A stretch of 64,000 nucleotides of DNA from Rhodococcus sp. 06-462-5. Lineage in GTDB: Bacteria; Actinomycetota; Actinomycetes; Mycobacteriales; Mycobacteriaceae. Positions 36,404 through 56,566 of this stretch are shown here, in pieces. The stretch is from NCBI RefSeq assembly GCF_002258315.1, contig NZ_NOYD01000013.1, positions 310,001-374,000 on the forward strand, given 5' to 3'. The notes below the pieces were generated by a model that saw nothing but the letters and a program-made list of their open reading frames with translations, was not told where the DNA came from and searched no databases. The position numbers and the translations under genes were made by a program. Each line of letters starts with the position of its first letter. The first letter of the stretch is position 1.

Positions 36404-37360
36404 TCACACCACAAAGCCGAGCTTCTTGTCCACGACATTGAGCAGGGGTTCGGCCCGGAAGTATCGACCTGCGTTGTCGGCGAACACCTCTGCGAGTCGC
36501 TGCTTCCACCCCGATGCGTCGCCGCTCATGTGCGGAGTGAGAATCACGTTCTCGGCCGTCCACAACGGATGGTCGGCCGAGAGCGGCTCGGTCTCGAACA
36601 CGTCCAGCGCGGCACCCGTGATGTGTCCGCTGCCGAGATGCATCAGCAGTGCCTCGGTATCGAGCAACTCACCGCGGCCCACGTTGATCACCCGCGCGCC
36701 GGACTTCATCGCGGCCAACACGGAATCGTCGACCAGACCCCTCGTCTGTTCGGTCAGCGGGGCAACCAGAACCAGGTAGTCGGCCCGCCCTACTTCGTCC
36801 ACCAGATCATCACTGGCGTACACGGTGCCGAAGTCTCCGTCGCCGTCTCGCGCTGTTCGACCCACGCCGGAGACCGACATTCCCACAGCACTCAGCAGAG
36901 TCGCGATGGCACGACCGATCGCTCCGGTGCCCACGATCATCGCGTGGGCACCGTCGATACGTTCGGTCTCACGGTGTTGCCAGATCTTCGAATGCTGCAA
37001 TGCACGTGAACGTTCGGAGTCCTTGGCGAACGCGAGGATCTGAGCCAGCACGAACTCCGCGATCGGTCGATCGAAGACGCCACGCGAATTGGTCACGACC
37101 ACATCGGATTCCACCAACTCGTCGAACATCAACGAGTCCACGCCGGCAGCGGCGATATGGATCCACTTCAGCGAACCGCAGCGCGGCCACGCGGATTCGA
37201 CTGCAGGCGAGAAGAAATCCCACAGCAGCAACGCGTCGGCACCGTCGACCGCATCCGCCAGGGTGTCGGCCGTGGCGTATCTGACGTCGGCGGCCTCCGC
37301 GACGGACTCGAGTCCGTCGGGAAGATCGCCGGCGTGCAGAACGACGAGAACCGGTGCCAC
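36404..37360 (-). CDS. D-2-hydroxyacid dehydrogenase (NAD-dependent)
   Basis: 318 residues from a GTG. The Rossmann motif is IVGTGAIGRAIATLLSAVG, followed by the R in INVGRGELLDTEALL, the E in ALDVFETEPL and the catalytic H in VILTPHMSGD. These are the features of the family that interconverts 2-oxoacids and D-2-hydroxyacids. It lies 2 nt downstream of the MFS transporter gene and is probably part of the catabolic regulon; a D-2-hydroxyacid product could be used by the FAD/Fe-S dehydrogenase at 44960-47872. Confidence 0.87.
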   Translation of the reverse strand: MAPVLVVLHAGDLPDGLESVAEAADVRYATADTLADAVDGADALLLWDFFSPAVESAWPRCGSLKWIHIAAAGVDSLMFDELVESDVVVTNSRGVFDRPIAEFVLAQILAFAKDSERSRALQHSKIWQHRETERIDGAHAMIVGTGAIGRAIATLLSAVGMSVSGVGRTARDGDGDFGTVYASDDLVDEVGRADYLVLVAPLTEQTRGLVDDSVLAAMKSGARVINVGRGELLDTEALLMHLGSGHITGAALDVFETEPLSADHPLWTAENVILTPHMSGDASGWKQRLAEVFADNAGRYFRAEPLLNVVDKKLGFVV

Positions 37361-37362
37361 TT

Positions 37363-38790
37363 CTACTTCTTGTAGCCGACGAGCTCGACGCCGGACGCAG
37401 CGACCTCGTCGTCGTTGTCACCGGGGCACTGGGTTCCGCGCAGTGATCGCCCTGCCGTCTCGGGCATCAACAGGATCGGCACGAACGCGATCGCAGCAGC
37501 GATCATCATGTACCAACCCGGAATCAGGTTGGAACCCGTTCGGTCGATCAGGAACGTCAGAATCAGCGGTGCTGTACCACCGAAGAGCGCCGTCGAGACG
37601 TTGTATCCGATGGCGAACGCTCCGTAGCGCACCTGGGTGGGGAACAGTGCGGGCAGTGTCGACGACACGCAGGAGCACATGATGACCAGCAATACTCCGA
37701 GGCCGAGGAGGCCAATGCTCTGGCCGATCAGTCCGGTGTTGATGATCAGCAGGAACAGCGGAACGCTGAGCACGAAGTACCCGACGCAGGCGGCCAGCAG
37801 CAACGGCTTTCGGCCCACCCGGTCGGACAGAGCGCCGATCGGGTTGATGATCAACATCATGATGATCATGATCGCCACGAGGGTGAAGTTGGACTGAGTC
37901 GTGCTGTGCCCCAACGTGTCGCTCAGGTACGAGGGCAAGAACGTCAGCACCGTGTAGTACGCGATATTGAGTAGCAGCACGAACCCCATCAGAATCAGAA
38001 TCCGCTGCCAGTACGTCATGGTGGCCTTGAGCGAGGTGACGGCACCGCCTGCACCCTCTTCGACCGTGCCGCCGTCTTCTTTCGCTTCGGCGAACACCGG
38101 TGAATCCTCGAGCCGGGTCCGCAACCACAGCGCAACGATGCCCAACGGGAGCGTCACCAGGAACGGGATTCTCCAGCCCCAGGCCTCCATGGTCTCGTCG
38201 CCGAGCCCGACGTTGAGCAGGGTGCACAGGGTGGCACCGCCCACCGTGCCTGCGAGGGTGCCGAATTCGAGGAACGATCCGAAGAATCCGCGCCGCTTGT
38301 CGGGCGCGTACTCGGCCATGAACACAGCTGCACCACCGTACTCACCACCGGTGGAGAAGCCCTGCACCAAACGGCAGACGAGCAGCAGCAACGGTGCGGC
38401 GATGCCGATGGTGTCGAATGTCGGCAGCACACCGATCGCCGCCGTGGCCAACGTCATCATCGAGACGGTCAGTACGAGGACCTTCTGACGACCGATGCGA
38501 TCGCCGAGTGGGCCGAGCACGATGCCACCGATGGGACGAATGATGAACGACGCGGCCAGCACGGCGAAGGTGGAGAGCAGGCTCGCTCCCCCGTCCTCGG
38601 ACGGGAAGAAATTGGCGGCGATGTAGACGGCGAGATAGCCGTACACCGCGTAGTCGAACCACTCGACTGCGTTGCCGAGTGCCGATCCACCGATGGCGCG
38701 GTGGAGAATCTTGGTCTCGTCCGGGCTCAGGATATCGGTACTGGGGGGATATCCGGTCGGCGATGCTGCCGACCCTGATTTTTCGGTCAC
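37363..38790 (-). CDS. MFS transporter, metabolite:H+ symporter (MHS) type
   Basis: 475 residues from GTG 38790, with GAGAGG upstream. Twelve membrane segments are predicted by eye. The MHS/ProP signature is clear: GNAVEWFDYAVYGYLAVYIA in helix 1, GPLGDRIGRQKVL in loop 2-3, and GFSTGGEYGGAAVFMAEYAP in helix 4-5. ProP-type members carry ectoine, proline and betaine, so import of ectoine in this catabolic context is plausible but not shown by sequence. A TTTGTGGACAAA palindrome lies 20 bp before the start. Confidence 0.88.
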   Translation of the reverse strand: MTEKSGSAASPTGYPPSTDILSPDETKILHRAIGGSALGNAVEWFDYAVYGYLAVYIAANFFPSEDGGASLLSTFAVLAASFIIRPIGGIVLGPLGDRIGRQKVLVLTVSMMTLATAAIGVLPTFDTIGIAAPLLLLVCRLVQGFSTGGEYGGAAVFMAEYAPDKRRGFFGSFLEFGTLAGTVGGATLCTLLNVGLGDETMEAWGWRIPFLVTLPLGIVALWLRTRLEDSPVFAEAKEDGGTVEEGAGGAVTSLKATMTYWQRILILMGFVLLLNIAYYTVLTFLPSYLSDTLGHSTTQSNFTLVAIMIIMMLIINPIGALSDRVGRKPLLLAACVGYFVLSVPLFLLIINTGLIGQSIGLLGLGVLLVIMCSCVSSTLPALFPTQVRYGAFAIGYNVSTALFGGTAPLILTFLIDRTGSNLIPGWYMMIAAAIAFVPILLMPETAGRSLRGTQCPGDNDDEVAASGVELVGYKK

Positions 38791-38809
38791 GGTCGAAATA
38801 CCTCTCGCT

Positions 38810-38821
38810 TTTGTGGACAAA
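38810..38821. promoter_or_regulatory. weaker GntR-type operator before the MFS gene
   Basis: TTTGTGGACAAA is an inverted repeat of TTTGT around GG. It shares the TTGT-N2-ACAA core with the two perfect operators at 42681 and 49162. Confidence 0.45.
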
Positions 38822-38904
38822 GTGGAGCGTCGGTGTGGTACTTCGCAGCGTTCGACATTACGGCGATGCCGAACAAACGTTTCGGCCAACCCCCTCGTGC
38901 AGCG

Positions 38905-40101
38905 CTAAAGTCCTGGTAGTGCAGCAATTCTGGTGGCGATCAACGCGTACGCCCTTGCGCTGTCGGTCAATTGCCGCACGGCAACGGACTCGTCCGGCCG
39001 ATGTGCTTGCTTTTCGATCTCCCCCGGACCGAGCACGACGGTGGGTATTCCCATCTGCTGTGCCACAAAACCACCATCGCACGATGCGGTCCAGATGTCA
39101 GTGGAACGGCCAAATCCGTTGTCGATAACCGATTGCACTGCGGTAGTGACCAATCCGTTGTTCACGCTGGTCAGAAAGCCCGGCATCTCCATTGCGATAC
39201 CGATCTCGACATCGATACCGGACCCGGTGAGTTCCGCAGATTCGATGCGGGATCGCAGATCTCCTACGACTCCGGCGGCGCTCTCGCCCGGTAACAGACG
39301 GCGGTCGACGGTGACGACACACCGGTCGGCGACCATCGAGGTGCCCGTACCTCCCGCTATCGTCCCCACATTCCAGGTGGCCGGCCCCAGTTCGGGGTCG
39401 GGGTTCGCGTCCAGTTCGGCCTGGGAGCCCTCGATGATCCCGATGATGCGTGCTGCAGCAGAGATGGCGTTGGCTCCGTTGCGCGGCTGCCCCGCATGCG
39501 CGGAACGGCCCCGAACCTCGATCTCCAGGTTCGCCGCTCCTCTGCAGCCGTAGATGGTGACCAGATCCGTAGGCTCCGCCACCACGCAACAGCTGTACGT
39601 GCGGTGCTGCGGTTCGGCGACGAAAGCTCGGATACCGAGTCCGGTGTCCTCCTCGTCGACCAGGCACGCCAACGTCATGGGGTGCTCGTCCGCGAGACCG
39701 GAACGCAGGACAGCGGCCATGGCCGCCACCACCGCGGCCAGGCCGCCTTTCATGTCGCAGGACCCGCGGCCGACGATGCGACCGTCCTGAACCACGGCGG
39801 AAAAGGGATCGGTGGTCCAGCCCGTACCAGCGGGGACCACATCGGAGTGGCCCACGAACAACACCCCTGGCCGCTCGTCGGATCCGATGGACACGATGAC
39901 GTTGGGCCGACCCGGAGCCACCTCGACGGTACGAACGTCGAATCCCACTGCGCGACAGTGCTCGGCGAGCACTTTCGCAGTCTTCTCCTCCGTGTCGCCG
40001 GGGTTCTCGCCGCCGGCGTCGATCAATGCTGCCGTCAGCGAGACGATCTCGTGCTCGTCGATCGAATCGAGCAGAGCGCGTTCGGTATTCGAGACGGTCA
40101 T
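38905..40101 (-). CDS. M20 family deacylase (ArgE/DapE-like)
   Basis: 398 residues from ATG 40101, overlapping the aminotransferase stop by 4 nt. Two-zinc amidohydrolase: ligand motifs LFVGHSDVVPAG, GRGSCDMKGG, VDEEDTGLG and VAEPTD; a dimerisation domain begins RGRSAHAGQP. Related enzymes remove N-acyl groups from amino acids. Next to an ectoine hydrolase it could deacetylate N-acetyl-diaminobutyrate, replacing DoeB, which belongs to the unrelated AstE/AspA family. That substrate is inferred from context only. Confidence 0.85.
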   Translation of the reverse strand: MTVSNTERALLDSIDEHEIVSLTAALIDAGGENPGDTEEKTAKVLAEHCRAVGFDVRTVEVAPGRPNVIVSIGSDERPGVLFVGHSDVVPAGTGWTTDPFSAVVQDGRIVGRGSCDMKGGLAAVVAAMAAVLRSGLADEHPMTLACLVDEEDTGLGIRAFVAEPQHRTYSCCVVAEPTDLVTIYGCRGAANLEIEVRGRSAHAGQPRNGANAISAAARIIGIIEGSQAELDANPDPELGPATWNVGTIAGGTGTSMVADRCVVTVDRRLLPGESAAGVVGDLRSRIESAELTGSGIDVEIGIAMEMPGFLTSVNNGLVTTAVQSVIDNGFGRSTDIWTASCDGGFVAQQMGIPTVVLGPGEIEKQAHRPDESVAVRQLTDSARAYALIATRIAALPGL

Positions 40102-41357
40102 CGGGTGGGGTCGGAGGCGAGCAGGTGCTTGGACTTCTCCACTGCGACGGCAAGCCTTCTGATTCCCTCCTCGATGCGTTCGGGTGTCGACGAGGCGAAG
40201 CACAACCGCAACGAATCGTGGAACTTTCCGCCCACCGACAACGCCGGCCCCGGTATGTAGGCCACGCCCTCGGCCAGTGCCGTCTCGAACAGGTCCTGCG
40301 TAGAGAAGTCGACATCGTTGCCGCGCAACGTCGCCCAGAGAAAGAAACCCCCCTCGGGATCCGTGGTCGACATCGAGTCGCCGAAGTGCTGGGCGATACT
40401 GTTCTGCATCGCAATCTTGCGGGGGAGGTACACCGAGGCCAACGATCGGAGATGCTCGTCGAGCAGGCCGCGCCGGATGTACTCGGCCACCATCCGCTGG
40501 CCGGGCAGGTTGGTGCACGTGTCCATGGCCTGTTTGGCGTTGACGATCAGCTGCCGAGCCTCGGGGGCGGCGTCCACCCACCCCACTCGCAGGCCGGGAG
40601 CGATCATCTTGGAGAAGGTCCGTACCGAGAAGATCAACGGGTCGTTCGGACTGAGCGTGCCGAAACTGGGAATCGGATCACCCGAGAAGCGGAGCAGGCC
40701 ATAGGGATCGTCGTCGAGAATCACCGAACCCCAGCGATGTGCCAGTTCGATCAACAGCTTTCGGCGTTCGAGCGACATGGTCACGCCGGACGGGTTCTGG
40801 AAGTTGGGGATCACGTAGATCATCTTGGGCAGGCGACCCGCGCGCTCGACGAGCTCGGGCAAGGCCTCGACGATGAGACCGTCACTGTCCATCGGGGCCT
40901 CGAGGATGTCCCCCCCGTAGCTGAGCACGGTGGCGGTTCCGTTGGTGTACGTGGGACTTTCGACGATCACCAGGTCGCCCGGATCGACGAACAACTTGCA
41001 GGCGATGTCGAGACCCTGCATTCCGCCTGAGGTGATCACCACCCGGTCCTCGGACGTGGGTTCGCCCACCGAGTCGAGGTAGGAGAGCAACGCGTCGAGC
41101 AGGCCCGGATCACCCTCGGTGGCACCGTAATCGAACGCGTCCGCGGTGAGGACGCTGCCGGCGATCTCGGTGAACGCAGCGGCCGGAACCGTCTCGGCTG
41201 CAGGCGATCCCATGGCGAATCGAACGATGTCGTGCTTCTGTGCAGCGAGAAGTGATGTCGACGAGTCGATCACCGATCCCACCAGCTTGTCGGTCCGTAG
41301 CGCCCAGGGAATGGCGGGAGTGAAGCCTGCGGAACGACCTCGAGTAGATGCGGTCAT
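40098..41357 (-). CDS. PLP-dependent aminotransferase, class I/II (LysN-like)
   Basis: 419 residues from ATG 41357, 2 nt after the ectoine hydrolase stop. Fold-type I features are ITSGGMQGLD, YVIPNFQNPSGVTMS, ILDDDPYGLLRF and the PLP lysine in SVRTFSKMIAPGLRVGW. It resembles 2-aminoadipate/valine-type aminotransferases and the catalytic part of MocR regulators, but has no DNA-binding domain. Cotranscribed with the hydrolase and M20 genes. A role on diaminobutyrate or its keto acid is possible; the substrate is unknown. Confidence 0.85.
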   Translation of the reverse strand: MTASTRGRSAGFTPAIPWALRTDKLVGSVIDSSTSLLAAQKHDIVRFAMGSPAAETVPAAAFTEIAGSVLTADAFDYGATEGDPGLLDALLSYLDSVGEPTSEDRVVITSGGMQGLDIACKLFVDPGDLVIVESPTYTNGTATVLSYGGDILEAPMDSDGLIVEALPELVERAGRLPKMIYVIPNFQNPSGVTMSLERRKLLIELAHRWGSVILDDDPYGLLRFSGDPIPSFGTLSPNDPLIFSVRTFSKMIAPGLRVGWVDAAPEARQLIVNAKQAMDTCTNLPGQRMVAEYIRRGLLDEHLRSLASVYLPRKIAMQNSIAQHFGDSMSTTDPEGGFFLWATLRGNDVDFSTQDLFETALAEGVAYIPGPALSVGGKFHDSLRLCFASSTPERIEEGIRRLAVAVEKSKHLLASDPTR

Positions 41358-41359
41358 GC

Positions 41360-42649
41360 TCACTCCTTCGTCAGTAGTTCTCGGGGGTATGCGGTGAAGG
41401 TTTCGAGTCCGTTCTCGGTGACCCGAACGGCCTCGGATACCTCGTATCCGTAGTCGTCCATCCACATTCCGCCGATGATGTGGAACGTCATGTTCTCGGC
41501 GAGTACCGTGTCGTCGTCGGTCCGCAGACTCACGGTGCGCTCCCCCCAGTCGGGTGCGTAGGCGATGCCGATCGAGTAGCCGATGCGCGACGGCTTGTGC
41601 AGTCCGTGCTTGGCCAGGCTCGCGTTCCATACCTGTGCGAGGTCGGTGGCGGTGACGCCTGCCCGCACGGTCGCGAGCACGTCGTTCAGTGCTTCTCCGG
41701 TGGACTTGGCGAGGTAATCCATACGCTTGCTTGGTTTTCCGAGCACGATCGTCCGAGCCATCGGGATGTGGTAGCGCCGAAACACTCCGGCCAGTTCGAC
41801 GACGGTGGTCTCGCCGCGGACGAAGGGTTGATGCGACCAGGTCAGATGAGGGGTGTCGGCTCCGGCCCCGGTGGGCAGCATCGGCACGATGGCTGGATGA
41901 TCGCCGCCGAAGTCCGCAGTGCCCCGCACCTGTGCGTTCATGATGGCCGCGGCCGCGTCGCATTGCCGCTCACCCACCGAGATTGCCTGGTAGGCAGCCG
42001 ACATCGCCGATTCACACACCTGTGCAGCACCGCGCATCAGGGCAATCTCCGCGGGCGACTTGACCACTCGCACCCAGTTGATGAGCTCGTAGGAGTCGGT
42101 GAATCGGTATTCGGGCAGCGACTTCACCAGTGCCTCGAATGCCTTGGGACTGAAGTAGTACGAGTCCATCTCCAGACCCACCTGGCCGTGCTCGAAGTTG
42201 TTCACCAGCCCCAGTTCGCGCAGTTTCGCGGCGACCCAGACGAATGGGTGAGTGTCCTTGCGCTGCACGAACGTTTCCGGGTAGCCGAACGTCCGATCCT
42301 GCGGCAGCCACGACGTGCGAAACGCGCCGTTGGCGTCCATTTCGCGGGCGAAGAAATACATGTCGCCCTCGAGCGGGACGTACAGCATCTGCGGAGTGTA
42401 GAACGAGAGCGCGTTGTAGCCGAGCAGGTAGTAGAGGTTCGCGGGATCGGTGACGATGAGCGCCGTGAGGTTCTGCGCTGCCATCCGCTCTCGGACGGCA
42501 GCGAGCCGGGCGGCGTATTCCTCGTCCGTGAAGGTGATCGGCGTGCTGTTCGGAACATCGGGGTACCGAGCCAGGCCGGGAGCGGCCCGTCCTGCGGTTT
42601 CGTTGGGTCCGAGTGCGGTGACGTAGGCGGCGTCGGGTGAGTCGTTCAC
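41360..42649 (-). CDS. doeA: ectoine hydrolase, M24 peptidase family (DoeA/EutD-like)
   Basis: 429 residues from GTG 42649, with AAGGGGG 5 nt upstream; the frame opens at TTG 42664. M24 (pita-bread) fold with a creatinase N-domain (ALIVTDPANLYYLLGYN). Segments GGDHPAIVPMLPTGA, TPHLTWSHQPF, FRRYHIPMARTIVLG and YAPDWGERTVSLR match what I know of DoeA/EutD, which opens the ectoine ring to N-acetyl-diaminobutyrate. Canonical M24 metal ligands are largely replaced (for example E for D in VVELAG, S for H in RIGYSIG, H for E in MTFHIIGG), as in metal-free EutD. First gene of its operon, behind a GntR-type operator. Confidence 0.85.
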   Translation of the reverse strand: MNDSPDAAYVTALGPNETAGRAAPGLARYPDVPNSTPITFTDEEYAARLAAVRERMAAQNLTALIVTDPANLYYLLGYNALSFYTPQMLYVPLEGDMYFFAREMDANGAFRTSWLPQDRTFGYPETFVQRKDTHPFVWVAAKLRELGLVNNFEHGQVGLEMDSYYFSPKAFEALVKSLPEYRFTDSYELINWVRVVKSPAEIALMRGAAQVCESAMSAAYQAISVGERQCDAAAAIMNAQVRGTADFGGDHPAIVPMLPTGAGADTPHLTWSHQPFVRGETTVVELAGVFRRYHIPMARTIVLGKPSKRMDYLAKSTGEALNDVLATVRAGVTATDLAQVWNASLAKHGLHKPSRIGYSIGIAYAPDWGERTVSLRTDDDTVLAENMTFHIIGGMWMDDYGYEVSEAVRVTENGLETFTAYPRELLTKE

Positions 42650-42680
42650 GGGCACCCCCTTCAAAGAAGTCGATTTAGTA

Positions 42681-42694
42681 GATTGTTGACAATC
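42681..42694. promoter_or_regulatory. GntR/FCD-type operator at the doeA promoter
   Basis: GATTGTTGACAATC: perfect 6-bp arms GATTGT and ACAATC around TG. On the minus strand it directly follows a -10-like TAGCCT (42695-42700) with TTGCGA 18 bp further upstream, so a bound repressor would cover the transcription start. The same 14-mer recurs at 49162-49175, and the GntR gene starts upstream on the same strand. Confidence 0.75.
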
Positions 42695-42761
42695 AGGCTA
42701 AGCGCTGGTGTGAGAGGTTCGCAAGACTTCGGATGTAAATGCTGTGTTGCGCGTCCGGCGA

Positions 42762-43475
42762 CTATCCGGGAGTGGCCAGCGCCGAGTGTTCGGCCTGCTC
42801 CTCGACCATGGCGCGGGTCAGGTCGTGGATAGCCGTGTCCATGTGCTCGTGTACGCCCTTTTCCAGTGCGTCCCAGTCCGAACCGAGCAACAAGTCGACG
42901 ATCAGCTGGTGTTCCTCCACCAACGCCTCGGGTCGGTAGTACGCAGTTTCGAGGTTGGCCATGCAGATTCGCGCCTCCGCGGCGAGCGTGGCGTACATCC
43001 GCGACATCCGGCTGTTACGCGTCGCCGCGACCAGGGCGGTGTGAAACGCCAGATCTCGTTCGGCGAGACCTCGCCAGTCCGCCCGATCGATGAACGGCTG
43101 CATCTGCATCACGATGGCCGAGAGCTCGTCGGCAGCAGTGACCAATCGTGCGCGATCCCCGTGCACCAGGGTCCACGCGGCACCGACCTCGATCGCCGCG
43201 CGGGATTCGTAGATCTCGGTGACATCCTCACTGCTCAGTTCGACGACGAACACGCCTCGATTCCGGTAGCTGACGAGCAGCCCCTCCTGATTGAGGCGCT
43301 GCAGCGCCTCTCGCACCGGTCCCCGCGAGATCTCCAGTTCTGCGGCGACGTTGGCCTCGTTGATCTGTTCCCCGGGGGCGTACGACCCGTCGATGATGCG
43401 GTCGCGAATCTGGTCGGCAATGACCATCGACGTGTTGCGTGCGTCGATGGGCGTCAGTCGTCTCGAACTGGGCAT
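42762..43475 (-). CDS. GntR family transcriptional regulator, FCD (FadR) subfamily
   Basis: 237 residues. The winged-helix DNA-binding domain (about 15-80) has the GntR signature QINEANVAAELEISRGPVRE, LQRLNQEGLL and RNRGVFV. The all-helical FCD effector domain (about 90-225) has conserved D/H ligand positions in ERDLAFHTALVAATRNSRM and EEHQLIVDLLLG. FCD regulators bind organic acids and typically TTGT-N2-ACAA-like operators, matching the palindromes before doeA and before the aminotransferase gene. Known ectoine-utilisation regulators are MocR-type (EnuR) or Lrp-type (DoeX), so an FCD regulator here is unusual. Confidence 0.92.
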   Translation of the reverse strand: MPSSRRLTPIDARNTSMVIADQIRDRIIDGSYAPGEQINEANVAAELEISRGPVREALQRLNQEGLLVSYRNRGVFVVELSSEDVTEIYESRAAIEVGAAWTLVHGDRARLVTAADELSAIVMQMQPFIDRADWRGLAERDLAFHTALVAATRNSRMSRMYATLAAEARICMANLETAYYRPEALVEEHQLIVDLLLGSDWDALEKGVHEHMDTAIHDLTRAMVEEQAEHSALATPG

Positions 43476-43490
43476 GATCGAAAACCTCTC

Positions 43491-44963
43491 TCAGCCTCGG
43501 GGAATGGCGAAGTATTTGTACTCCAGAAACTCGTCTATGCCGACCTTTCCGCCCTCGCGGCCGAGTCCGGACTGTTTGACGCCACCGAACGGCGCAGCCG
43601 GATTGGACACCAGACCCGTGTTGAGGCCGACCATGCCCACCTCGAGGCGTTCCCCCATCCGCAGAGCCCGGTCGATGTCCTGGGTGAAGACGTATCCGAC
43701 GAGTCCCCACTCGGTGTCGTTCGCGAGTGCGATCACCTCGTCCTCGGTGTCGAACGGGACGATTGCTGCCACCGGTCCGAAGATTTCCTGTGACATCAGA
43801 TCCGACGCCGCATCGACGTCCGTGAGAACGGTCGGTGGGTAGAAGTAGCCGGGTCCGTCCGGAGCCGCTCCCCCGACGATCGCACGTGCGCCGCGCCCGA
43901 GGGCGTCGTCGACGAGTGTCTGCACCTTGGTGCGGCCCGCGCCGTCGATCAGCGGACCCACCTCGGTTCCGGGCGCACTACCGGCCCCCACCGACAATGC
44001 ACCCATGCGCTCGGCGAGCTTGTCCGCGAACTGCGCTGTGACACTGCGATGTACGAAGAATCGGTTGGCGGCGGTGCATGCCTCACCCATGTTGCGCATC
44101 TTGGCGACCATGGCACCGTCCACGGCACGTGCGAGATCTGCGTCGTCCATGACGATGAAGGGTGCGTTGCCGCCGAGCTCCATCGAGGTACGCATCACCG
44201 TCGACGCAGCTTGTTCGAGCAGAATCTTGCCCACCGCAGTCGATCCGGTGAAGCTGATCTTGCGGGCCGCACCGCTGCTCATCCACGAGCCCACGACTCC
44301 CGACGCGTCGGTGGTGGTCACGACGTTGACCACTCCCGCCGGAACGCCCGCGTCGTGCAGGATTCCGGCCAGAGCCAGCGCTGTCAGCGGAGTTTGCTCC
44401 GCCGGCTTGAACACCACGGTGCATCCTGCCGCCAGCGCCGGGCCGATCTTGCGAGTTCCCATGGCCAACGGGAAGTTCCACGGAGTGACGAGAATGCACG
44501 GTCCCACCGGTGCGCGGGTGACCACGATGCGGTTCTTACCGTCTCCGGTGAGGGTGTGATCGCCCGAGATGCGCACCGCCTCCTCGGAGAACCAGCGAAA
44601 GAACTCGGCTCCGTACGCCACCTCACCCCGCGCATCGGCCAGTGGTTTTCCCATTTCCGCGGTGATGATCGCAGCGAGCTCCTCCGAGCGCGCCATGATC
44701 AATTCGTACGCTCTGCGGAGGATTTCGCTGCGTGCGCGCGGCGGCGTCGCGGCCCAGTCGGCGGCGGCGTCGACCGCTGCGGCCATGGCGTTCTCGGCAT
44801 CGTCGATGCTGCCGTCGGCGACTTTGGCGATGACCTCGCCGCTCGCGGGATCGACGACATCGAACCGAGCATCGGACGCTGCGGCCGTCCACGCGCCTGC
44901 GATGAACAGTTCGGTCGGAGCCGTGATGGTGGGCCGAGTGAGGCTGGTCGAACTGGCGGTCAT
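43491..44963 (-). CDS. aldehyde dehydrogenase (succinate/aspartate-semialdehyde type, DoeC candidate)
   Basis: 490 residues, NAD(P)-dependent. Motifs: VTPWNFPLAMGTRKIGPAL, TVVFKPAEQTPLTAL, FTGSTAVGKIL, the catalytic glutamate in MELGGNAPFIV, the catalytic cysteine in GEACTAANRF and EIFGPVAAIVPF. It is closest in style to GabD-like semialdehyde dehydrogenases. In ectoine breakdown DoeC oxidises aspartate semialdehyde to aspartate, which fits the operon. Overlaps the FAD/Fe-S gene by 4 nt. Confidence 0.88.
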   Translation of the reverse strand: MTASSTSLTRPTITAPTELFIAGAWTAAASDARFDVVDPASGEVIAKVADGSIDDAENAMAAAVDAAADWAATPPRARSEILRRAYELIMARSEELAAIITAEMGKPLADARGEVAYGAEFFRWFSEEAVRISGDHTLTGDGKNRIVVTRAPVGPCILVTPWNFPLAMGTRKIGPALAAGCTVVFKPAEQTPLTALALAGILHDAGVPAGVVNVVTTTDASGVVGSWMSSGAARKISFTGSTAVGKILLEQAASTVMRTSMELGGNAPFIVMDDADLARAVDGAMVAKMRNMGEACTAANRFFVHRSVTAQFADKLAERMGALSVGAGSAPGTEVGPLIDGAGRTKVQTLVDDALGRGARAIVGGAAPDGPGYFYPPTVLTDVDAASDLMSQEIFGPVAAIVPFDTEDEVIALANDTEWGLVGYVFTQDIDRALRMGERLEVGMVGLNTGLVSNPAAPFGGVKQSGLGREGGKVGIDEFLEYKYFAIPRG

Positions 44964-47872
44964 GGCCGCGGTCCTTTCGTAGAACGTGGATCGAGTATCT
45001 GCGCCAGGTGTACGGACGCGTCACTCGTCAGATCACCGGTGAGTTGACGCACCTGCATGTGGCAGGAGAATCCGTCGGTCAGAATCGGGGTGTCCGGCTC
45101 GGCGTCACGCAGTGCCGGCGCGAGGGCCTGCTCGGCCACCGCCATGCTCAGCTCGTAGTGCCGAGACTCGAAGCCGAAATTGCCTGCCACACCGCAACAT
45201 CCGGTGGCCTCCCGTACTGCGTCGATACCGATGGCGGCCAACGCCGTGCGCTGGGTGGCGTTGCCGAACACCGCGTATTCGTGGCAATGGGTCTGTACGG
45301 TCACCGAAGCGGGAACCTCGGCCGCAGGCACCCACCCGGCGGCGGCCTGATCGATCACCGCTCCCGCGAAACTCTGCACTCGCGCCGCGACCCGTCTCGC
45401 GGCCGCGGTGGGAACCAGCTCCGGCATGTCCTTGCGGAATGCCGCCGCGCAGCTCGGTTCGGTGACGACGATGGGTCGGTCGGTGCCGTCGTCCAGTGCT
45501 GCAACGGCTTTCGTGAGGTGCGTGCGGGCGGCCTTCAGCTGACCCGTCGAAATCCAGGTCAGACCACAGCACACGTCGGTCCGGCATTCGGTGCTGCGAC
45601 CCGAGTCCTCGAGCACGCGCTGCGCCGCACCCGCGACCTCGGGGCGAAAGCCCTGGGTGAACGTGTCGACGACCAACACGACGTCCGCGTCGCGGCCGCC
45701 GCCGATACGGACCTCTCGCGCCAGTTCTTTCGCCGATGCGAAGCGAGGCAACGGCCGCTCGGTGGTCAGCCCACCGAGCCGAGCCGCCAGTGCCGCGATG
45801 CGCGGGGTGAGCAGACGGTTGAGCAGCGGTGCCGTTCGCTGCGTCACCTTCAGCCAGCGGGGCAACCAACCCAACGAATAGTGCGAGAGCGGCCGCAGTC
45901 GCCCCGCGTAGTGATGATCGAGAAACTCGGACTTGTACGTCGCCATGTCCACTCCGACCGGACAATCCGACGAACAGGCCTTGCAGGACAGACACAGATC
46001 GAGCGATTCGGCCACGTCCTTCGAGGCCCACCCGTCGGCAACGGTCGGCGAACTGCGCACCATCTCCTGCAGCACTCGTGCCCGACCCCGCGTCGAATCC
46101 TTCTCGTCGCCCGTGGCGCGGAAACTGGGGCACATGACGCCTCCCGACGCGGTGCGACACTTACCGACGCCGACACACGACTGGGTTGCGTGCACGAACG
46201 GATCCAGATCTGCCCGCGTCCCGATCTGGTGCAGATCGAACGTCGTCTTCCACTCTCGCTGCGGGATGCCCTGCAGCATCAGGTTGTCCATCATCGGCTC
46301 CGGATCGGTTATCGATCCCGGGTTGAGAATGCCGCTGGGGTCCCAGATGCGCTTGAATCGCGCGAACGCGTCGAGCATGCGGGGCGAGTACATCACCGGC
46401 AGCAGTTCCGACCGAGCCCTGCCGTCGCCGTGCTCGCCGGACAGGCTGCCGCCGTGCTTGACGACCACCCGAGCAGCAGCGCGCAGGAAGTCGTACATCA
46501 CCCGTCGTCCGGCGTCGGTGCGCTGATCGAATGTGATGCGCACGTGCATGCAGCCGGCACCGAAGTGTCCGTACATCACGCCGGTCAGATCGTGTTCGGC
46601 CAGAAGCACGTTGAGGTCGGCGAGATAGGCGGACAGGTTCTCGGGTGCGACGGCGGCGTCCTCCCAGCCACCCCAGGACTCGGCTCCGCTGGCCAGGCGG
46701 GTCGCCAGACCGGCGCCGTCCTCACGTACTCGCCACAGCGCTGTTCGATCGGCCGGGTCGGTGACGATGCGGCCCTCCTTGACGCGGCCGAGTAGACCGA
46801 GAGCCTCGACCAGACGGGCGGCCTTGTTCTCCACCTCGGCGGTATCGGCTCCGTCGAGGTCGACGTAGAGCCAGGCGTTTCCCGCAGGCAGACCGCGGAC
46901 GGAGTCCGGTCCGCGCCGGTACTCCATGGTCTGGGCGATGTTGTCGTCGATACCCTCCACCGCGGCAGGCGAGAACTCGAGAATGGCCATCACGTCCGCT
47001 GCAGCAGCCACCACGTCGTCGTAGCCGAGGCAGAGCAACAGTGCGGCCTGCGGTACGGGCACGACGGCGACGGTGACCGAGACGATCACCGCGCACGTGC
47101 CCTCGCTTCCGACGAGTGCACGAGCGACGTCGAATCCGTTCTCGGGCAGCAGATGCGACAGGTGAAATCCGGAAACCTGTCTCGGTATGCGACCCAGCTC
47201 GACTCTGAAGAGCGCGAGGTTGTCGGCCGCCAGCGACTGCAGCTCGCGCGAGATACGTTGGGCCTCATCGGTTGCCGCCGCATCCTCCGAATGCACTGCC
47301 GCCACACCGCTACGGGTCACCCGGAGTAGGTGCCCGCCGGCAGTCACCACGTCCATGGCCACCGTGTGGTCCGCTGTTCGACCGTAGCGAACCGAGTGGT
47401 TACCGCACGCGTCGTTGCCGACCGCCCCGCCGACCGTCGCGCGTGTCTTGCTGGACGGGTCGGGTGCGAACGTGAATGCTCCAGCAGTGCGTGCCACCAG
47501 CTCTCGCTGCAACTCCGAGATCACGATTCCCGGTTCCACCACCGCCGTTCGCGAGTCGGTGTCCACCGAGATCACGCGATTCATGTGGCGAGAGAAATCG
47601 AGCACGATTCCGCGGCCGATCGCGTTGCCCGCCATGGACGTTCCGCCGCCGCGGCCGATGACTGCGATTCCGGCAGCGGCGCACAGCGACACCACGGTGG
47701 ACACGTCGTCGGCGCTGCGCGGAAAGACCACAGCGGCAGGCGGAATTCGGTAGTTCGAGGCGTCGTAGGAATACTCGGCGAGCCGCCGATCCGAGTCGTC
47801 GATCTCAATACCCAGTTCGCGCACTTCCTGCACGAGTGCGGAAACCGGGGATCGAACGGAAGCAGCCGTCAC
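44960..47872 (-). CDS. FAD-linked oxidase/Fe-S dehydrogenase fusion (YdiJ/D-2-hydroxyacid dehydrogenase-like)
   Basis: 970 residues. The N-terminal PCMH-type FAD domain (about 1-260) has VVFPRSADDVSTVV and GRGGGTSMAGNAIG. A FAD-oxidase C-domain follows with HFGAGCMHVRI and GGSLSGEHGDGRARSELL. A ferredoxin-like Fe-S region contains CVGVGKC and the 4Fe-4S pattern CLSCKACSSDCPVG. The end is a GlpC-like CCG domain with CCGLTW and CCGVAGNFGF. E. coli YdiJ of this layout oxidises D-2-hydroxyglutarate; glycolate or D-lactate are alternatives. Overlaps genes on both sides by 4 nt. Its role beside ectoine genes is unexplained. Confidence 0.88.
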   Translation of the reverse strand: MTAASVRSPVSALVQEVRELGIEIDDSDRRLAEYSYDASNYRIPPAAVVFPRSADDVSTVVSLCAAAGIAVIGRGGGTSMAGNAIGRGIVLDFSRHMNRVISVDTDSRTAVVEPGIVISELQRELVARTAGAFTFAPDPSSKTRATVGGAVGNDACGNHSVRYGRTADHTVAMDVVTAGGHLLRVTRSGVAAVHSEDAAATDEAQRISRELQSLAADNLALFRVELGRIPRQVSGFHLSHLLPENGFDVARALVGSEGTCAVIVSVTVAVVPVPQAALLLCLGYDDVVAAAADVMAILEFSPAAVEGIDDNIAQTMEYRRGPDSVRGLPAGNAWLYVDLDGADTAEVENKAARLVEALGLLGRVKEGRIVTDPADRTALWRVREDGAGLATRLASGAESWGGWEDAAVAPENLSAYLADLNVLLAEHDLTGVMYGHFGAGCMHVRITFDQRTDAGRRVMYDFLRAAARVVVKHGGSLSGEHGDGRARSELLPVMYSPRMLDAFARFKRIWDPSGILNPGSITDPEPMMDNLMLQGIPQREWKTTFDLHQIGTRADLDPFVHATQSCVGVGKCRTASGGVMCPSFRATGDEKDSTRGRARVLQEMVRSSPTVADGWASKDVAESLDLCLSCKACSSDCPVGVDMATYKSEFLDHHYAGRLRPLSHYSLGWLPRWLKVTQRTAPLLNRLLTPRIAALAARLGGLTTERPLPRFASAKELAREVRIGGGRDADVVLVVDTFTQGFRPEVAGAAQRVLEDSGRSTECRTDVCCGLTWISTGQLKAARTHLTKAVAALDDGTDRPIVVTEPSCAAAFRKDMPELVPTAAARRVAARVQSFAGAVIDQAAAGWVPAAEVPASVTVQTHCHEYAVFGNATQRTALAAIGIDAVREATGCCGVAGNFGFESRHYELSMAVAEQALAPALRDAEPDTPILTDGFSCHMQVRQLTGDLTSDASVHLAQILDPRSTKGPRP

Positions 47873-49143
47873 AGCACGTTCTTCAGCGTGCGCGACAACG
47901 CGTCGAGGCCCTGCCGCATCTCGTCGTCGCTCACGATCAGCGCCGGGATGATCCGAACCACGTTGCCGAGCGCGCCACAGGTGAGCAGCAACAACCCCTC
48001 GTCGATCGCACCCTGTTGCACGCGCAGGGCGGCCCCAGCATCGGGATTGCCTGCACTGTCGACGAATTCGAGTGCCTGCATCAAGCCGAGTCCACGTGCA
48101 TCACCGATGGCAGAGTGCTCGGACTTCAGTGCGAGCAGGCCGTCGAGCAGAACTCGGCCCTGCGCGGCAGCGTTGGCGACCAGACCTTCCTCACGCACGA
48201 CGTCGAGCGTCGCAACACCCGCCGCAGCGGCGACGGCATTGCCGCCGTACGTGCCGCCCTGCGAACCGGGCCATGCCTTGCCCATCAACTCGGTCGATGC
48301 CGCGATCGCCGAGATGGGAAATCCACTGGCCAGACCTTTTGCGGTGATGACGATGTCGGGCGTGATCGTCGAATGCTGGTGGCCCCAGAACTTTCCGGTG
48401 CGTCCCACGCCCGCTTGCACCTCGTCGACGATGAGGACGATCCCGTGGGTGTCCGCGCGTTCGCGGAGTCCCTCGAGGAACTCCGGAGGCGTGGGCAGAT
48501 AACCACCGTCACCGAGTACCGGCTCGATGATGAACGCAGCGGTGTCGGCGGGGCTCGACATCGTCATCAGCAGGTAGTCGAGTTCCTTCAACGCGAAGGC
48601 GACGGCGGTGTCCATGTCCCAGCCGTATCGGAACGCGTACGGGAACGGCGCGATGTGCACACCGCCCATGATCGGTGAGAATCCGGACCGAAACTTGGTG
48701 CCCGCGGTGGTCAACGACGCGGCCGCCACCGTGCGTCCGTGGAACCCTCCGTGGAACGCGATGATGTTGGGCCGTCCGGTCGCCATGCGCGCCAACCGAA
48801 TCGATGCCTCGACGGCCTCGGAGCCGGAGTTGGCGTAGAAGACGCTGTCGAGACCGGGCGGTAGCACCTCGCCGAGCTTGTCGGTCAGCGCCAGCAGCGG
48901 CTGATGCATGACTGTCGTGTACTGAGCGTGGATGATCTTGCCCACCTGCTCGCGGGCGGCCTCGACCACGCGGGGATGGCAGTGCCCGGTGCTGGTGACG
49001 CCGATACCGGTGGTGAAGTCGAGGTACTTGCGCCCGTCCGTGCCGATGATCCAGCTGCCCTTTCCGTGATCGACGACGATCGGGGTCGCCTGCTTGAGTG
49101 CCGGGCTGAGGTGGGTGCGAATCGACGCTGTCATGGCTGCCAT
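47869..49143 (-). CDS. class III aminotransferase (GABA/diaminobutyrate type, DoeD candidate)
   Basis: 424 residues from ATG 49143 (MAAMTASIRTHLSPALK), with GGTGGG 5 nt upstream; ATG 49134 also works. The longer frame to 49173 would run through the operator. Family motifs: YLDFTTGIGVTSTGHCHPRV, YANSGSEAVEASIRLAR, FHGGFHGRT, VLIVDEVQAGVGRTGKFW, and the PLP lysine in VITAKGLASGFP. DoeD-type enzymes convert diaminobutyrate to aspartate semialdehyde; GABA aminotransferase is the main alternative. Leads the operon aminotransferase - FAD/Fe-S - ALDH - GntR. Confidence 0.88.
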   Translation of the reverse strand: MAAMTASIRTHLSPALKQATPIVVDHGKGSWIIGTDGRKYLDFTTGIGVTSTGHCHPRVVEAAREQVGKIIHAQYTTVMHQPLLALTDKLGEVLPPGLDSVFYANSGSEAVEASIRLARMATGRPNIIAFHGGFHGRTVAAASLTTAGTKFRSGFSPIMGGVHIAPFPYAFRYGWDMDTAVAFALKELDYLLMTMSSPADTAAFIIEPVLGDGGYLPTPPEFLEGLRERADTHGIVLIVDEVQAGVGRTGKFWGHQHSTITPDIVITAKGLASGFPISAIAASTELMGKAWPGSQGGTYGGNAVAAAAGVATLDVVREEGLVANAAAQGRVLLDGLLALKSEHSAIGDARGLGLMQALEFVDSAGNPDAGAALRVQQGAIDEGLLLLTCGALGNVVRIIPALIVSDDEMRQGLDALSRTLKNVL

Positions 49144-49161: not shown

Positions 49162-49175
49162 GATTGTCAACAATC
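49162..49175. promoter_or_regulatory. GntR/FCD-type operator in the aminotransferase/ribokinase divergent region
   Basis: GATTGTCAACAATC, the exact reverse complement of the operator at 42681-42694. It lies 19 bp upstream of the aminotransferase ATG and 54 bp upstream of the ribokinase GTG, so one site may control both directions. Confidence 0.75.
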
Positions 49176-54196: not shown

Positions 54197-56023
54197 ATGA
54201 AGCCCGCATTGCTGAGAAGTACCCCAGTCACTGCGCCGGACGCAGTGAAGTTTCGTAAGCCACAGATCTCCGACGGAGTCCGGCTCTGGGAGATCGCAAG
54301 AGATTCGCGAGTTCTGGATCTCAATTCCAGCTACTCGTACGTGTTGTGGTGCCGTGATTTCGCGGCCACCACCGTCGTATCCGACATCGACGGCCGCGCA
54401 GTCGGTTTCGTCACCGGATACATCCGCCAGGACGCCCCCCGCACACTGTTCGTGTGGCAGGTCGCCGTGGATGCGGACCAGCGTGGCAAGGGACTTGCCG
54501 GTCGCATGCTGATGGAGCTGCTCGACCGCCTCGAGCCACAGGGCATCACGCATCTCGAAACAACGATCAGCCCGGACAACGAAGCGTCCATCGCAACCTT
54601 CACGAGCCTCGCACGTAAGCGAGGCACCGACATCGTCAGGTCGGATTTGTTCGCGCCCAACGATTTCCCTGATAGCCACGAAGCCGAGGAGCTCTACACC
54701 GTAGGCCCCGACGCATCGCGGAATTACGAGAGGAACAAGCAGAACATGACCGAAAAGAACACCGTCACAACAGAGAAGCCCGATGTTTTCGAGACCGTCG
54801 AGTCCGGCGTGCGGAGCTACAGCCGCCAGTGGCCCGCCGTGTTCTCCACCGCGAAGAACTCGGTGATCACCGACGAGGACGGCAACGACTACCTCGACTT
54901 CTTCGGTGGCGCAGGCGCACTCAACTACGGCCACAACAACGACATGATCAAGAGCGCGTTGGTGGACTACATCACCAGCGACGGCATCACGCACGGACTC
55001 GACATGTCCACCGTTGCCAAGCGCGAGTTCCTCGAGTCGTTCAAGAAGAACATCCTCGATCCCCGCGGCCTGGACTACAAGGTTCAGTTCCCCGGACCGA
55101 CGGGCACCAACACCGTCGAGGCGGCACTGAAGTTGGCCCGCAAGGTCACCGGCCGCGAGGCGATCATCAACTTCACCAACGCATTCCACGGCATGACACT
55201 CGGCGCGCTGTCGGTCACCGGCAACTCGATGAAGCGAGCTGGCGCCGGAATTCCGTTGGTGCACACCACTCCGATGCCGTACGACAACTACTTCGGCGGC
55301 GTCACCGAGGACTTCCAGTGGTTCGAGCGCGTGCTCGACGACTCGGGCAGCGGGTTCAACCGCCCGGCCGCAGTGATCGTGGAAACCATCCAGGGTGAGG
55401 GCGGCATCAACGTCGCGCGCCCCGAGTGGCTGCGCGCGTTGGCAGAACTGTGCTCGCGACGCGAGATCCTGCTGATCGTCGACGACGTCCAGATGGGCTG
55501 CGGTCGCACCGGTCAGTTCTTCTCGTTCGAGGAAGCCGGCATCACCCCGGACATCGTCACGCTGTCCAAGTCCATCGGCGGCTACGGCATGCCGTTGGCA
55601 CTGACCCTGTTCAAGCCCGAACTGGACGTGTGGTCGCCGGGCGAGCACAACGGCACTTTCCGCGGCTTCAATCCGTCGTTCGTCACGGCGAAGGCAGCCA
55701 TCGACCACTACTGGGCCGATGACACCTTCGAGAAGGAGATCCTCGCCAAGGGCGAGCACATCCAGGATCGCTTCATCAAGCTCTGCGCAAAGTTCGACGG
55801 CATCTCCACTCGCGGCCGCGGCATGGTCCAGGCTCTGGTGTTCGACGACGCCGAGTTGGCCGGCAAGGTGTCGCAGCTGTGCTACGACGAGCATCTGCTC
55901 GTCGAGACGGCAGGACCGAAGGACGAGGTCGTCAAGCTGCTCCCACCGTTGACCACGACGATGGACGAGCTGGACCGCGGTCTGGACGTCATCGAGAGCG
56001 CCGTCGCCAAGGTGCTTTCCTGA
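54197..56023 (+). CDS. ectA: continuous ectA-ectB reading frame: diaminobutyrate acetyltransferase followed in frame by EctB
   Basis: From ATG 54197 the frame encodes EctA (about 175 residues) and continues without a stop through a 15-residue linker into EctB, giving a possible 608-residue fusion. EctA is a GNAT enzyme acetylating L-2,4-diaminobutyrate. Visible motifs are RKPQISDGVRLWEIARDS, VLDLNSSYSYVLWCRDFA, FVTGYIRQD and the acetyl-CoA loop VDADQRGKGLAGRM. EctA normally ends near HEAEELYTVG; here PDASRNYERNKQN follows before the EctB Met. The upstream ATG 54125 has GGGGA before it and would add 24 residues. It may be a real fusion or stop-codon loss by mutation or error. Confidence 0.8.
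   Translation: MKPALLRSTPVTAPDAVKFRKPQISDGVRLWEIARDSRVLDLNSSYSYVLWCRDFAATTVVSDIDGRAVGFVTGYIRQDAPRTLFVWQVAVDADQRGKGLAGRMLMELLDRLEPQGITHLETTISPDNEASIATFTSLARKRGTDIVRSDLFAPNDFPDSHEAEELYTVGPDASRNYERNKQNMTEKNTVTTEKPDVFETVESGVRSYSRQWPAVFSTAKNSVITDEDGNDYLDFFGGAGALNYGHNNDMIKSALVDYITSDGITHGLDMSTVAKREFLESFKKNILDPRGLDYKVQFPGPTGTNTVEAALKLARKVTGREAIINFTNAFHGMTLGALSVTGNSMKRAGAGIPLVHTTPMPYDNYFGGVTEDFQWFERVLDDSGSGFNRPAAVIVETIQGEGGINVARPEWLRALAELCSRREILLIVDDVQMGCGRTGQFFSFEEAGITPDIVTLSKSIGGYGMPLALTLFKPELDVWSPGEHNGTFRGFNPSFVTAKAAIDHYWADDTFEKEILAKGEHIQDRFIKLCAKFDGISTRGRGMVQALVFDDAELAGKVSQLCYDEHLLVETAGPKDEVVKLLPPLTTTMDELDRGLDVIESAVAKVLS
54746..56023 (+). CDS. ectB: diaminobutyrate--2-oxoglutarate transaminase EctB
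   Basis: 425 residues from the internal ATG 54746, in frame with ectA. First step of ectoine synthesis: aspartate semialdehyde plus glutamate to diaminobutyrate. Motifs: FETVESGVRSYSRQWPAVF (EctB N-terminus), FFGGAGALNYGHNN, FPGPTGTNTVEAALKLARK, FTNAFHGMTLGALS, LIVDDVQMGCGRTG and the PLP lysine in VTLSKSIGGYGMPLAL. An AGAGGA sequence lies 11 nt before the ATG, long for a Shine-Dalgarno, so independent initiation is possible but may be weak. Confidence 0.92.
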   Translation: MTEKNTVTTEKPDVFETVESGVRSYSRQWPAVFSTAKNSVITDEDGNDYLDFFGGAGALNYGHNNDMIKSALVDYITSDGITHGLDMSTVAKREFLESFKKNILDPRGLDYKVQFPGPTGTNTVEAALKLARKVTGREAIINFTNAFHGMTLGALSVTGNSMKRAGAGIPLVHTTPMPYDNYFGGVTEDFQWFERVLDDSGSGFNRPAAVIVETIQGEGGINVARPEWLRALAELCSRREILLIVDDVQMGCGRTGQFFSFEEAGITPDIVTLSKSIGGYGMPLALTLFKPELDVWSPGEHNGTFRGFNPSFVTAKAAIDHYWADDTFEKEILAKGEHIQDRFIKLCAKFDGISTRGRGMVQALVFDDAELAGKVSQLCYDEHLLVETAGPKDEVVKLLPPLTTTMDELDRGLDVIESAVAKVLS

Positions 56024-56064
56024 CCGTCAGTCCCGCAAGAACCGACATCGAAGGAGGACATCGC

Positions 56065-56479: not shown

Positions 56480-56517
56480 ACGGCCCGCACCGATGCCTCC
56501 GCGTCGGTGCGGGCCGT
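56480..56517 (+). terminator. terminator hairpin after ectC
   Basis: Perfect 14-bp arms ACGGCCCGCACCGA and TCGGTGCGGGCCGT around a 10-nt loop, 17 nt after the ectC stop. No T-tract follows. Confidence 0.6.
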
Positions 56518-56553
56518 CGGCGTCGGTACGGTGCTCATCCGGCGACGGATCGC

Positions 56554-56559
56554 TATCCT
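56554..56559 (+). promoter_or_regulatory. -10 element for leaderless sirtuin gene
   Basis: TATCCT lies 7 nt upstream of GTG 56567, immediately after the ectC terminator hairpin. Suggests an independent leaderless transcript. Confidence 0.4.
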
Positions 56560-56566
56560 GGACGAA

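Follow-up and report, generated by a model that had tools for sequence, protein, structure and literature searches.

Ectoine is a salt-stress protectant, and the organism considered here, Rhodococcus sp. 06-462-5, is a soil and plant bacterium. In a 64,000-nucleotide stretch of its 5.76-Mb genome (contig NZ_NOYD01000013.1, positions 310,001 to 374,000; hereafter, the window), we analyzed a nine-gene, two-operon cluster that contains a DoeA-family M24 enzyme and that an earlier sequence-only reading had interpreted as a variant ectoine utilization pathway. The canonical degradation route, as described in the accessible parts of PMC5924519 and PMC3187862, is that of DoeABCD/EutDE (Halomonas elongata, Ruegeria, and Sinorhizobium). 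The window resembles that system in having a DoeA-family M24 enzyme, a deacylase, a class III aminotransferase, and a succinate-semialdehyde-dehydrogenase-like dehydrogenase. It differs in that PF04952, the only model of the AstE/AspA (DoeB) family tried, had 0 matches in the host genome (an Escherichia coli control was positive), that neither EnuR (MocR) nor DoeX (Lrp) is among the nine genes, where the class I aminotransferase has no GntR domain, and that the M24 enzyme falls outside the canonical clade. Both absences had been proposed in the sequence-only reading and hold within these scopes. In addition, the window carries genes for a class I aminotransferase (ATI), a D-2-hydroxyacid dehydrogenase (HADH), a flavin and iron-sulfur (FAD/Fe-S) dehydrogenase, and an FCD-type regulator.

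Gram-positive clusters with EutD but without EutE, and with an abgB hydrolase gene, have been published as pucR-eutBCD-atf and abgB-thrA-adh in a 2026 survey that, in the portion available, grades them tentative (PMC13188858). We take abgB to be an M20 gene, because a cluster of this type that we found on a Priestia plasmid has an M20 gene at that place. Such clusters share with the window an M24 enzyme, an M20-type hydrolase, an aldehyde dehydrogenase (ALDH), and a ProP transporter; however, the Priestia cluster has EutB, a cyclodeaminase, a cystathionine-synthase-like gene, a homoserine dehydrogenase, and PucR, none of which is among the nine genes here. The string "Rhodococc" has 0 occurrences in the main text of PMC13188858, and neither HADH nor D-malate is named in its accessible portion. 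M24-M20 clusters also occur elsewhere in the phylum (L052-L058). They are alike in that M20 follows M24 in 7 of 7, but their M20 proteins are 30.6 to 33.7% identical to that of the window, ATI is missing, and ABC-transporter, EutB-, and EutC-like genes lie nearby in most (judged by eye).

In the available part of the 2011 H. elongata paper, most of the ectoine producers compared had doeA-like genes alone or no doe genes, and it was concluded that either ectoine goes unmetabolized in such producers or other degradation routes exist (PMC3187862). Our literature search, which covered titles and abstract openings, returned no description of a D-malate-type ectoine route. Our leading interpretation of the window, in which we place slightly less than even confidence, is a two-operon regulon, probably FCD controlled, through which ectoine, or a ring analog very similar to it, would serve as a nutrient via D-malate.

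Two operons and their shared palindrome

The nine genes all lie on the minus strand in two runs, at coordinates that match the sequence-only reading or differ from it by a few codons. Operon A (42649-36404) reads M24, ATI, M20, transporter, HADH; operon B (49143-42762) reads class III aminotransferase (ATIII), FAD/Fe-S, ALDH, FCD. The features are as follows.

41360..42649, minus strand: M24 DoeA-type ring hydrolase (TIGR02993, 428.7 bits, cut-off 613; best PDB match DoeA, 6twj/6twk, 3.7e-106; separate clade)
40098..41357, minus strand: ATI, class I (2-aminoadipate/kynurenine aminotransferase II-like) aminotransferase without a helix-turn-helix domain (profile matches, PDB relatives, residue conservation, M24 neighbor)
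38905..40101, minus strand: M20 ArgE/DapE-family deacylase (TIGR01910, 235.5 bits, cut-off 217.6)
37363..38889 (start may be 38790), minus strand: ProP-like major facilitator superfamily (MFS) solute/H+ symporter (NF007927, 428.6 bits, cut-off 544)
36404..37360, minus strand: HADH, D-2-hydroxyacid dehydrogenase (profile matches, conserved residues, operator-linked in relatives)
42762..43475, minus strand: GntR/FCD regulator (PF00392 and PF07729), which probably binds the palindrome
43491..44963, minus strand: ALDH, succinate-semialdehyde-dehydrogenase-like (TIGR01780, 576.6 bits, cut-off 646.35)
44960..47872, minus strand: FAD/Fe-S D-2-hydroxyacid dehydrogenase, YdiJ/GlcD-like (NF049975, 446.7 bits, cut-off 1350)
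47869..49143, minus strand: ATIII, class III (gamma-aminobutyrate-aminotransferase-like) omega-aminotransferase (profile and relative searches)
42681..42694, no strand: predicted operator GATTGTTGACAATC, palindrome, 32-45 nt upstream of the M24 start
49162..49175, no strand: predicted operator GATTGTCAACAATC, palindrome, 19-32 nt upstream of the ATIII start

The sequence-only reading had placed M24, M20, and ATI in one run, and these genes are indeed tightly spaced: M24 and ATI are separated by a 2-base gap, and ATI and M20 overlap by 4 bases (ATGA). Its second operon of ATIII, ALDH, regulator, and FAD/Fe-S dehydrogenase is likewise present, with 4-base overlaps at the ATIII/FAD-Fe-S and FAD-Fe-S/ALDH junctions, followed by the FCD gene. 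It had not included the transporter and HADH genes, which come after M20 on the same strand, nor the shared palindrome, nor ectoine biosynthesis genes at 54197-56463. The overlaps and short gaps point to cotranscription within each operon. The M24 start codon is uncertain, as residues 1-37 lie outside the match to DoeA. No RNA family of Rfam reached its gathering score in positions 34000-58000 of the window.

The stretches before M24 and before ATIII each hold a 6+6 palindrome with a 2-base center. In the whole genome, GATTGTNNACAATC has exactly two sites, one ahead of each operon (backward control, 0), and ATTGTNNACAAT was found twice in the window against 0.00 expected. With this predicted operator ahead of 2 of 2 operons, we assign both to one regulon. 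Two ATTGTNNACAAT sites are also present in 21 of 23 named Rhodococcus/Rhodococcoides loci, with one each in L022 and L026 (a short contig). To these we added the neighborhoods of 41 ATI loci, window excluded (39 of 52 places in another family of the same class, plus G081 and G129), whose genes were called by our own script rather than a standard caller and labeled by BLAST clustering; the regions span at most ~20 kb, and local absence is weaker than genome-level absence. In 32 of the 41 loci, the 12-base core of the palindrome is found again ahead of M24, HADH, and ATIII; of the 66 sites there, 65 are located −60 to 300 bases from a gene start. The genes most often nearest were M24 (23), HADH (19), ATIII (18), amidase (9), FCD (8), and Amdase family (6), with divergent sites scored for both flanking genes and some at 200-300 bases perhaps incidental. 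The HADH site is separate from that of ATIII in L050, L051, L090, L092, and L115, and in the last three it is flanked by the HADH and FAD/Fe-S genes. No site was found in the seven loci without ATI (L052-L058) or in nine ATI loci (L116 and L118-L125); these nine all have a short-chain dehydrogenase/reductase (SDR) gene (c2), and in eight a LysR-like gene was recognized by eye, the remaining locus being a short contig.

Because the core palindrome recurs before M24, HADH, and ATIII in relatives, HADH and the FAD/Fe-S dehydrogenase, the "extra redox genes" of the sequence-only reading, are members of the regulon. We considered them as bystander genes and judged this unlikely, since the operator precedes them in relatives. 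The FCD regulator probably controls both operons by binding the palindrome; we infer operator binding and the direction of regulation.

Conservation and co-inheritance of the cluster

The nearest named carriers are Rhodococcus/Rhodococcoides strains, including R. fascians and R. kyotonense, with M24 proteins up to 97% identical. By tblastn, 21 of the 23 named loci carry all nine genes in an unchanged order, the exceptions being L026 and L035. The latter lacks the FAD/Fe-S gene and is probably from the same genome as the G160 locus, with which it shares its gene set. Beyond the genus, a search for ATI orthologs (E up to 1e-110) was positive for 50 of the 295 genomes sampled from another family of the same class and for 1 of the 17 from the family to which G129 belongs. 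No plasmid-borne ATI copy was found at E 1e-80. Across the 41 neighborhoods, M24 lies directly upstream of ATI on the same strand in 38 and M20 directly downstream in 37. At L110 the gene upstream of ATI was called as a 733-residue frame, L120 meets a contig end, L117 has neither M24 nor M20 adjacent, and L101, L113, and L127 have no adjacent M20. L049, from the family of the window, carries ATIII-FAD/Fe-S-ALDH-M24-ATI-M20 in a single run with HADH on the opposite strand. Since the nine-gene order is kept in 21 of 23 relatives and a second actinobacterial family has the same M24-ATI-M20 core, the cluster is more than a chance assembly.

To follow HADH and FAD/Fe-S at the level of whole genomes, 80 were searched: 54 with ATI and 26 ATI-negative controls, defined by the lack of an ATI match at E 1e-110. 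Of the 54 ATI genomes, 44 have HADH (E up to 1e-60). A close FAD/Fe-S ortholog (≥60% identity, our own threshold) accompanied it in 41 of these 44, and 0 of the 10 HADH-less genomes have one; G796, one of these ten, carries a 45% paralog. Two of the HADH genomes without a close ortholog have best matches of 40% (G129) and 46%, partial (G887). On the ATI tree, nine HADH-less rows form one clade; G634, the row sister to this clade, has HADH as well as FAD/Fe-S.

A tartrate dehydrogenase scoring over the TIGR02089 cut-off is present in 3 of 3 HADH genomes without a close FAD/Fe-S ortholog (G129, G160, and G887). It also occurs in 3 of 10 HADH-less genomes, in G932, G933, and G955, and in 2 of 23 other controls, for a total of 28 of 80 once the genomes that have both HADH and FAD/Fe-S are included (in this survey, G932, G933, and G955 replaced controls G656-G658). 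The association is suggestive, not strong, because the enzyme is common anyway. Gene position is the stronger point. In G129, a same-strand run comprises HADH, amidase, DUF3830, tartrate dehydrogenase, and a further gene, with an operator site 28 bases before HADH, and in G634 the tartrate dehydrogenase adjoins HADH. In a single case from an archaeon, a Halopiger plasmid (L144, 9876-14064), an FAD/Fe-S (33%) and D-2-hydroxyacid dehydrogenase (36%) pair lies on the opposite strand, ≤2 kb from an M24 gene (44%).

Several related arrangements were also seen. Eight loci (L116, L118, L119, and L121-L125) carry M24-ATI-M20-MFS-SDR with another class III aminotransferase (c8), an aldehyde dehydrogenase, and a LysR-like gene; alanine dehydrogenase is present in seven of them, and none shows HADH, FAD/Fe-S, or the palindrome in the stretches read. 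These are possibly a sister variant in which the SDR would take the place of the D-specific reductase and FAD/Fe-S oxidase and give L-malate directly. A module of DUF3830, amidase, Amdase/EutA-like, and amino-acid ABC transporter genes, or parts of it, lies near the same palindrome in L050, L051, L093, L095, L099, L107, and L127 and perhaps serves a second, related substrate. Finally, L138, from a genus member without an M24 match, has two HADH relatives (8873-9787 and 16595-17533), one between EctC and a Sir2-like gene; the second, 61% identical to the window HADH, lies near the first.

The M24 enzyme, its partners, and the substrate

A PDB search returned DoeA as the best match of the M24 enzyme, with 358.6 bits; the top-scoring prolidase reached 81.9. 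In a quick tree without bootstrap, on which L050 sits on a long branch, the ATI-linked M24 proteins group apart from canonical DoeA/EutD. Of the DoeA assignment in the sequence-only reading, membership in the DoeA family stands; filing the enzyme as canonical DoeA was dropped on the TIGR02993 score (428.7 against 613 bits) and the tree. Conservation was counted over the unselected columns invariant in 11 canonical-clade sequences (76 in the catalytic part, 149 at full length). In the catalytic part, the window M24 keeps 56 of 76, close to the ATI clade median (57.5; range, 53 to 60), the EutB-linked Priestia enzyme (56), and the haloarchaeal enzymes (54), while M24 proteins from other contexts keep 46 (Shinella and Roseateles-labeled) or 43 and 39 (two Rhizobium). 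The catalytic part thus looks as DoeA-like as that of enzymes with ectoine neighbors, and the N-terminal part looks diverged. The window M24 also retains every member of a set of 26 motif residues, but this set was picked after viewing clade conservation and was not used. The ATI-linked M24 proteins show a systematic change from GYDGW to GY(N/D)A(W/L). Ectoine is a likely substrate, not a proven one, because the enzyme lies outside the canonical clade and below the NCBIfam cut-off. Separately, plasmids L005 and L009 (Shinella and Roseateles-labeled) carry M24-M20 pairs beside a DUF1989 or EutA gene; their M24 proteins have fewer canonical DoeA residues and possibly act on a different substrate.

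The partner enzymes retain their motif residues. In ATI, K250, which we take to be the pyridoxal phosphate lysine, and N188, D216, D217, Y219, and R384 are kept in at least 41 of 42 sequences, so that ATI looks like a competent enzyme rather than a sensor domain. Among solved structures, it is closest to archaeal multi-substrate, 2-aminoadipate, and kynurenine aminotransferases, all alpha-aminotransferases. M20 passes its TIGR01910 cut-off and keeps H85, D116, E150, E151, E176, and H367, presumably the metal ligands, in 38 of 38. HADH keeps R229, E258, and H277, which we assume to be the Arg/Glu/His catalytic triad, in 22 of 22, and R168 at the end of the second strand suggests a preference for NADP(H). 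In the FAD/Fe-S protein, H423, H430, E467, and H468 (motifs GHFGAGC.H and GEHGDG, with presumed roles) are kept in 23 of 23. Because this protein scores far under the YdiJ model cut-off (NF049975, 446.7 against 1350 bits), its substrate is not readable from the YdiJ name.

Ectoine biosynthesis genes, and the gene next to them, lie at higher window coordinates, outside the operator-defined regulon:

54197..56023, plus strand: EctA-EctB fusion of 608 residues (TIGR02406, 179.5 bits, cut-off 120.6; TIGR02407, 641.8 bits, cut-off 552.2)
56065..56463, plus strand: EctC ectoine synthase (NF009806, 190.6 bits, cut-off 128), a context gene
56507-57433, plus strand: Sir2-family deacetylase, the gene after EctC, not EctD

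A literature search that included the accessible parts of PMC6915088, PMC7824335, and PMC13342039 gave no description of such a fusion. Of 37 genomes examined in the genus, 32 have a fusion-length EctAB match, and the five with an EctB-length match only are exactly the five without an M24 match. In 31 of 32 M24-bearing genomes, EctAB lies ~9-15 kb from M24 (distances measured by hand); in G938, the two are on different contigs. The window scan found no operator copy at the biosynthesis genes, and so the linkage may be only stable gene order.

A proposed route through D-malate and its rivals

The route that we propose is built on the observed gene content, layout, operator, catalytic residues, and co-inheritance; we infer its substrate, every intermediate, stereochemistry, and step order. 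After uptake by the ProP-like symporter, M24 would open the ring to N-acetyl-diaminobutyrate, M20 would take off acetate, and ATI would take off the alpha-amino group to give 4-amino-2-oxobutyrate or its acetyl form. M20 and ATI could act in either order, and ATI may go first on the N-gamma-acetyl isomer, which suits it because the alpha-amino group is free. As reported in the accessible part of PMC5924519, H. elongata DoeA yields N-alpha- and N-gamma-acetyl-diaminobutyrate at 2:1, and the gamma isomer is seemingly no DoeB substrate. HADH would next reduce the 2-oxo group to a D-2-hydroxyl, ATIII would remove the omega-amino group to leave D-malate semialdehyde, ALDH would oxidize this to D-malate, and the FAD/Fe-S dehydrogenase would convert D-malate to oxaloacetate; in some relatives, the tartrate/D-malate dehydrogenase may stand in at this last step. 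Several D-2-hydroxyglutarate dehydrogenases oxidize D-malate, and that of Pseudomonas stutzeri oxidizes both D-malate and D-2-hydroxyglutarate (PMC9504171, in part), although the window protein, whose use of D-malate is a prediction, is the long FAD plus Fe-S form.

The chemistry requires that two amino groups be removed and one aldehyde be oxidized. Because removing the alpha-amino group first would yield 2-oxo-succinic semialdehyde, which is unstable and reactive, temporary reduction by HADH with late reoxidation would be useful in sidestepping it. If this is true, 5-hydroxyectoine would, by our own stereochemical reasoning, give (2R,3R)-tartrate, which is also a substrate of tartrate dehydrogenases. 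The D-malate route employs all the enzymes of the two operons, unlike the aspartate route. Its broader form, in which a hydroxyacid-protected route via D-4-amino-2-hydroxybutyrate and D-malate to oxaloacetate or pyruvate bypasses aspartate as a further kind of ectoine catabolism, FCD controlled and present in at least two actinobacterial orders, is put forward as possible rather than probable.

Several observations weigh against the D-malate interpretation. Some lineages do without the FAD/Fe-S dehydrogenase: it has no match at all in G160 and is absent from the G932 locus (locus scope). HADH is also present in 7 of 26 ATI-negative controls and close FAD/Fe-S orthologs in 3 of 26, of which two contain an in-frame stop within the matched region. 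Because the nine HADH-less rows form one clade on the ATI tree, HADH and FAD/Fe-S being lost together counts as one evolutionary change. TIGR02089 matches occur in 17 of 41 genomes that have both HADH and FAD/Fe-S. In 4 of 41 loci, M20 does not adjoin ATI. E. coli and Pantoea YdiJ do not use D-malate (PMC9504171, in part). As to the ring hydrolase, no protein of the host genome exceeds the cut-off of TIGR02993, the DoeA equivalog, from which the window M24 falls 184 bits short; the ATI-linked M24 proteins form a separate 38-row clade (SH-aLRT, 100) outside the canonical one, whose members are doeB or ehu/eut linked; EutB and EutC are not among the nine genes; and, at full length, the window M24 keeps 102 of 149 columns (ATI clade median, 102; range, 95 to 111), compared with 114 for Priestia, 105-112 for the haloarchaeal enzymes, 98 for the Shinella and Roseateles-labeled enzymes, and 93 and 78 for those of Rhizobium.

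The low full-length count, barely above that of the Shinella/Roseateles-labeled pair (102 versus 98), is among the reasons to consider that the same D-2-hydroxyacid logic serves a substrate other than ectoine, such as another cyclic amidine or amide or an N-acylated diamino acid. The separate M24 clade, beside that pair with its altered residues, the GYDGW change, the lack of EutBC, and the operator shared with the DUF3830, amidase, and Amdase module in some relatives are all consistent with this. However, the catalytic part of M24 is as conserved as that of the EutB-linked Priestia enzyme, operon A has a ProP-like transporter, and EctAB and EctC lie near M24 in Rhodococcoides (though this may be just stable gene order); we consider a non-ectoine substrate rather unlikely. 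A further rival, raised in the sequence-only reading, is that the M24 enzyme acts on Xaa-Pro peptides instead. Operons for peptide breakdown would fit the Pfam M24 and Creatinase_N domains that the two enzyme types have in common, but DoeA scores >270 bits above any prolidase in the PDB search, and TIGR02993 reaches 428.7 bits against 79.6 for PepQ. The peptidase was accordingly rejected as very improbable.

A usual aspartate route with swapped parts, as the sequence-only reading had it, would have M24 as DoeA, M20 as DoeB, ATIII as DoeD, and ALDH as DoeC, with ATI converting aspartate to oxaloacetate and with HADH and FAD/Fe-S as side genes. Parts of that reading stand, namely the DoeA-family enzyme, M20 at the place of DoeB, and the probable control of both operons by an FCD regulator through an operator with two genomic sites. 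ATIII and ALDH are of the classes expected of DoeD and DoeC (PMC5924519, in part), the ArgE-like M20 could accept N-alpha-acetyl-diaminobutyrate, and some cluster carriers lack FAD/Fe-S. Yet HADH, FAD/Fe-S, and ATI are conserved, operator linked, and unexplained by DoeA-B-D-C; HADH and FAD/Fe-S are mostly co-inherited with the cluster; ATI stands right behind M24 in 38 of 41 loci, which is odd for a duplicate aspartate aminotransferase; and the tartrate/D-malate dehydrogenase in the HADH run of G129 is left without a role. This version, which leaves some enzymes idle, we consider unlikely.

Taken together, these results establish a conserved, operator-defined gene set as real, and we interpret it best as a new variant of ectoine-type catabolism. 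For Actinomycetota, the cluster supplies a specific candidate route that is delimited by an operator and has named enzymes and D-malate as a predicted end product, and, if true, it would be a clear case of reduce-then-reoxidize protection in a catabolic pathway.

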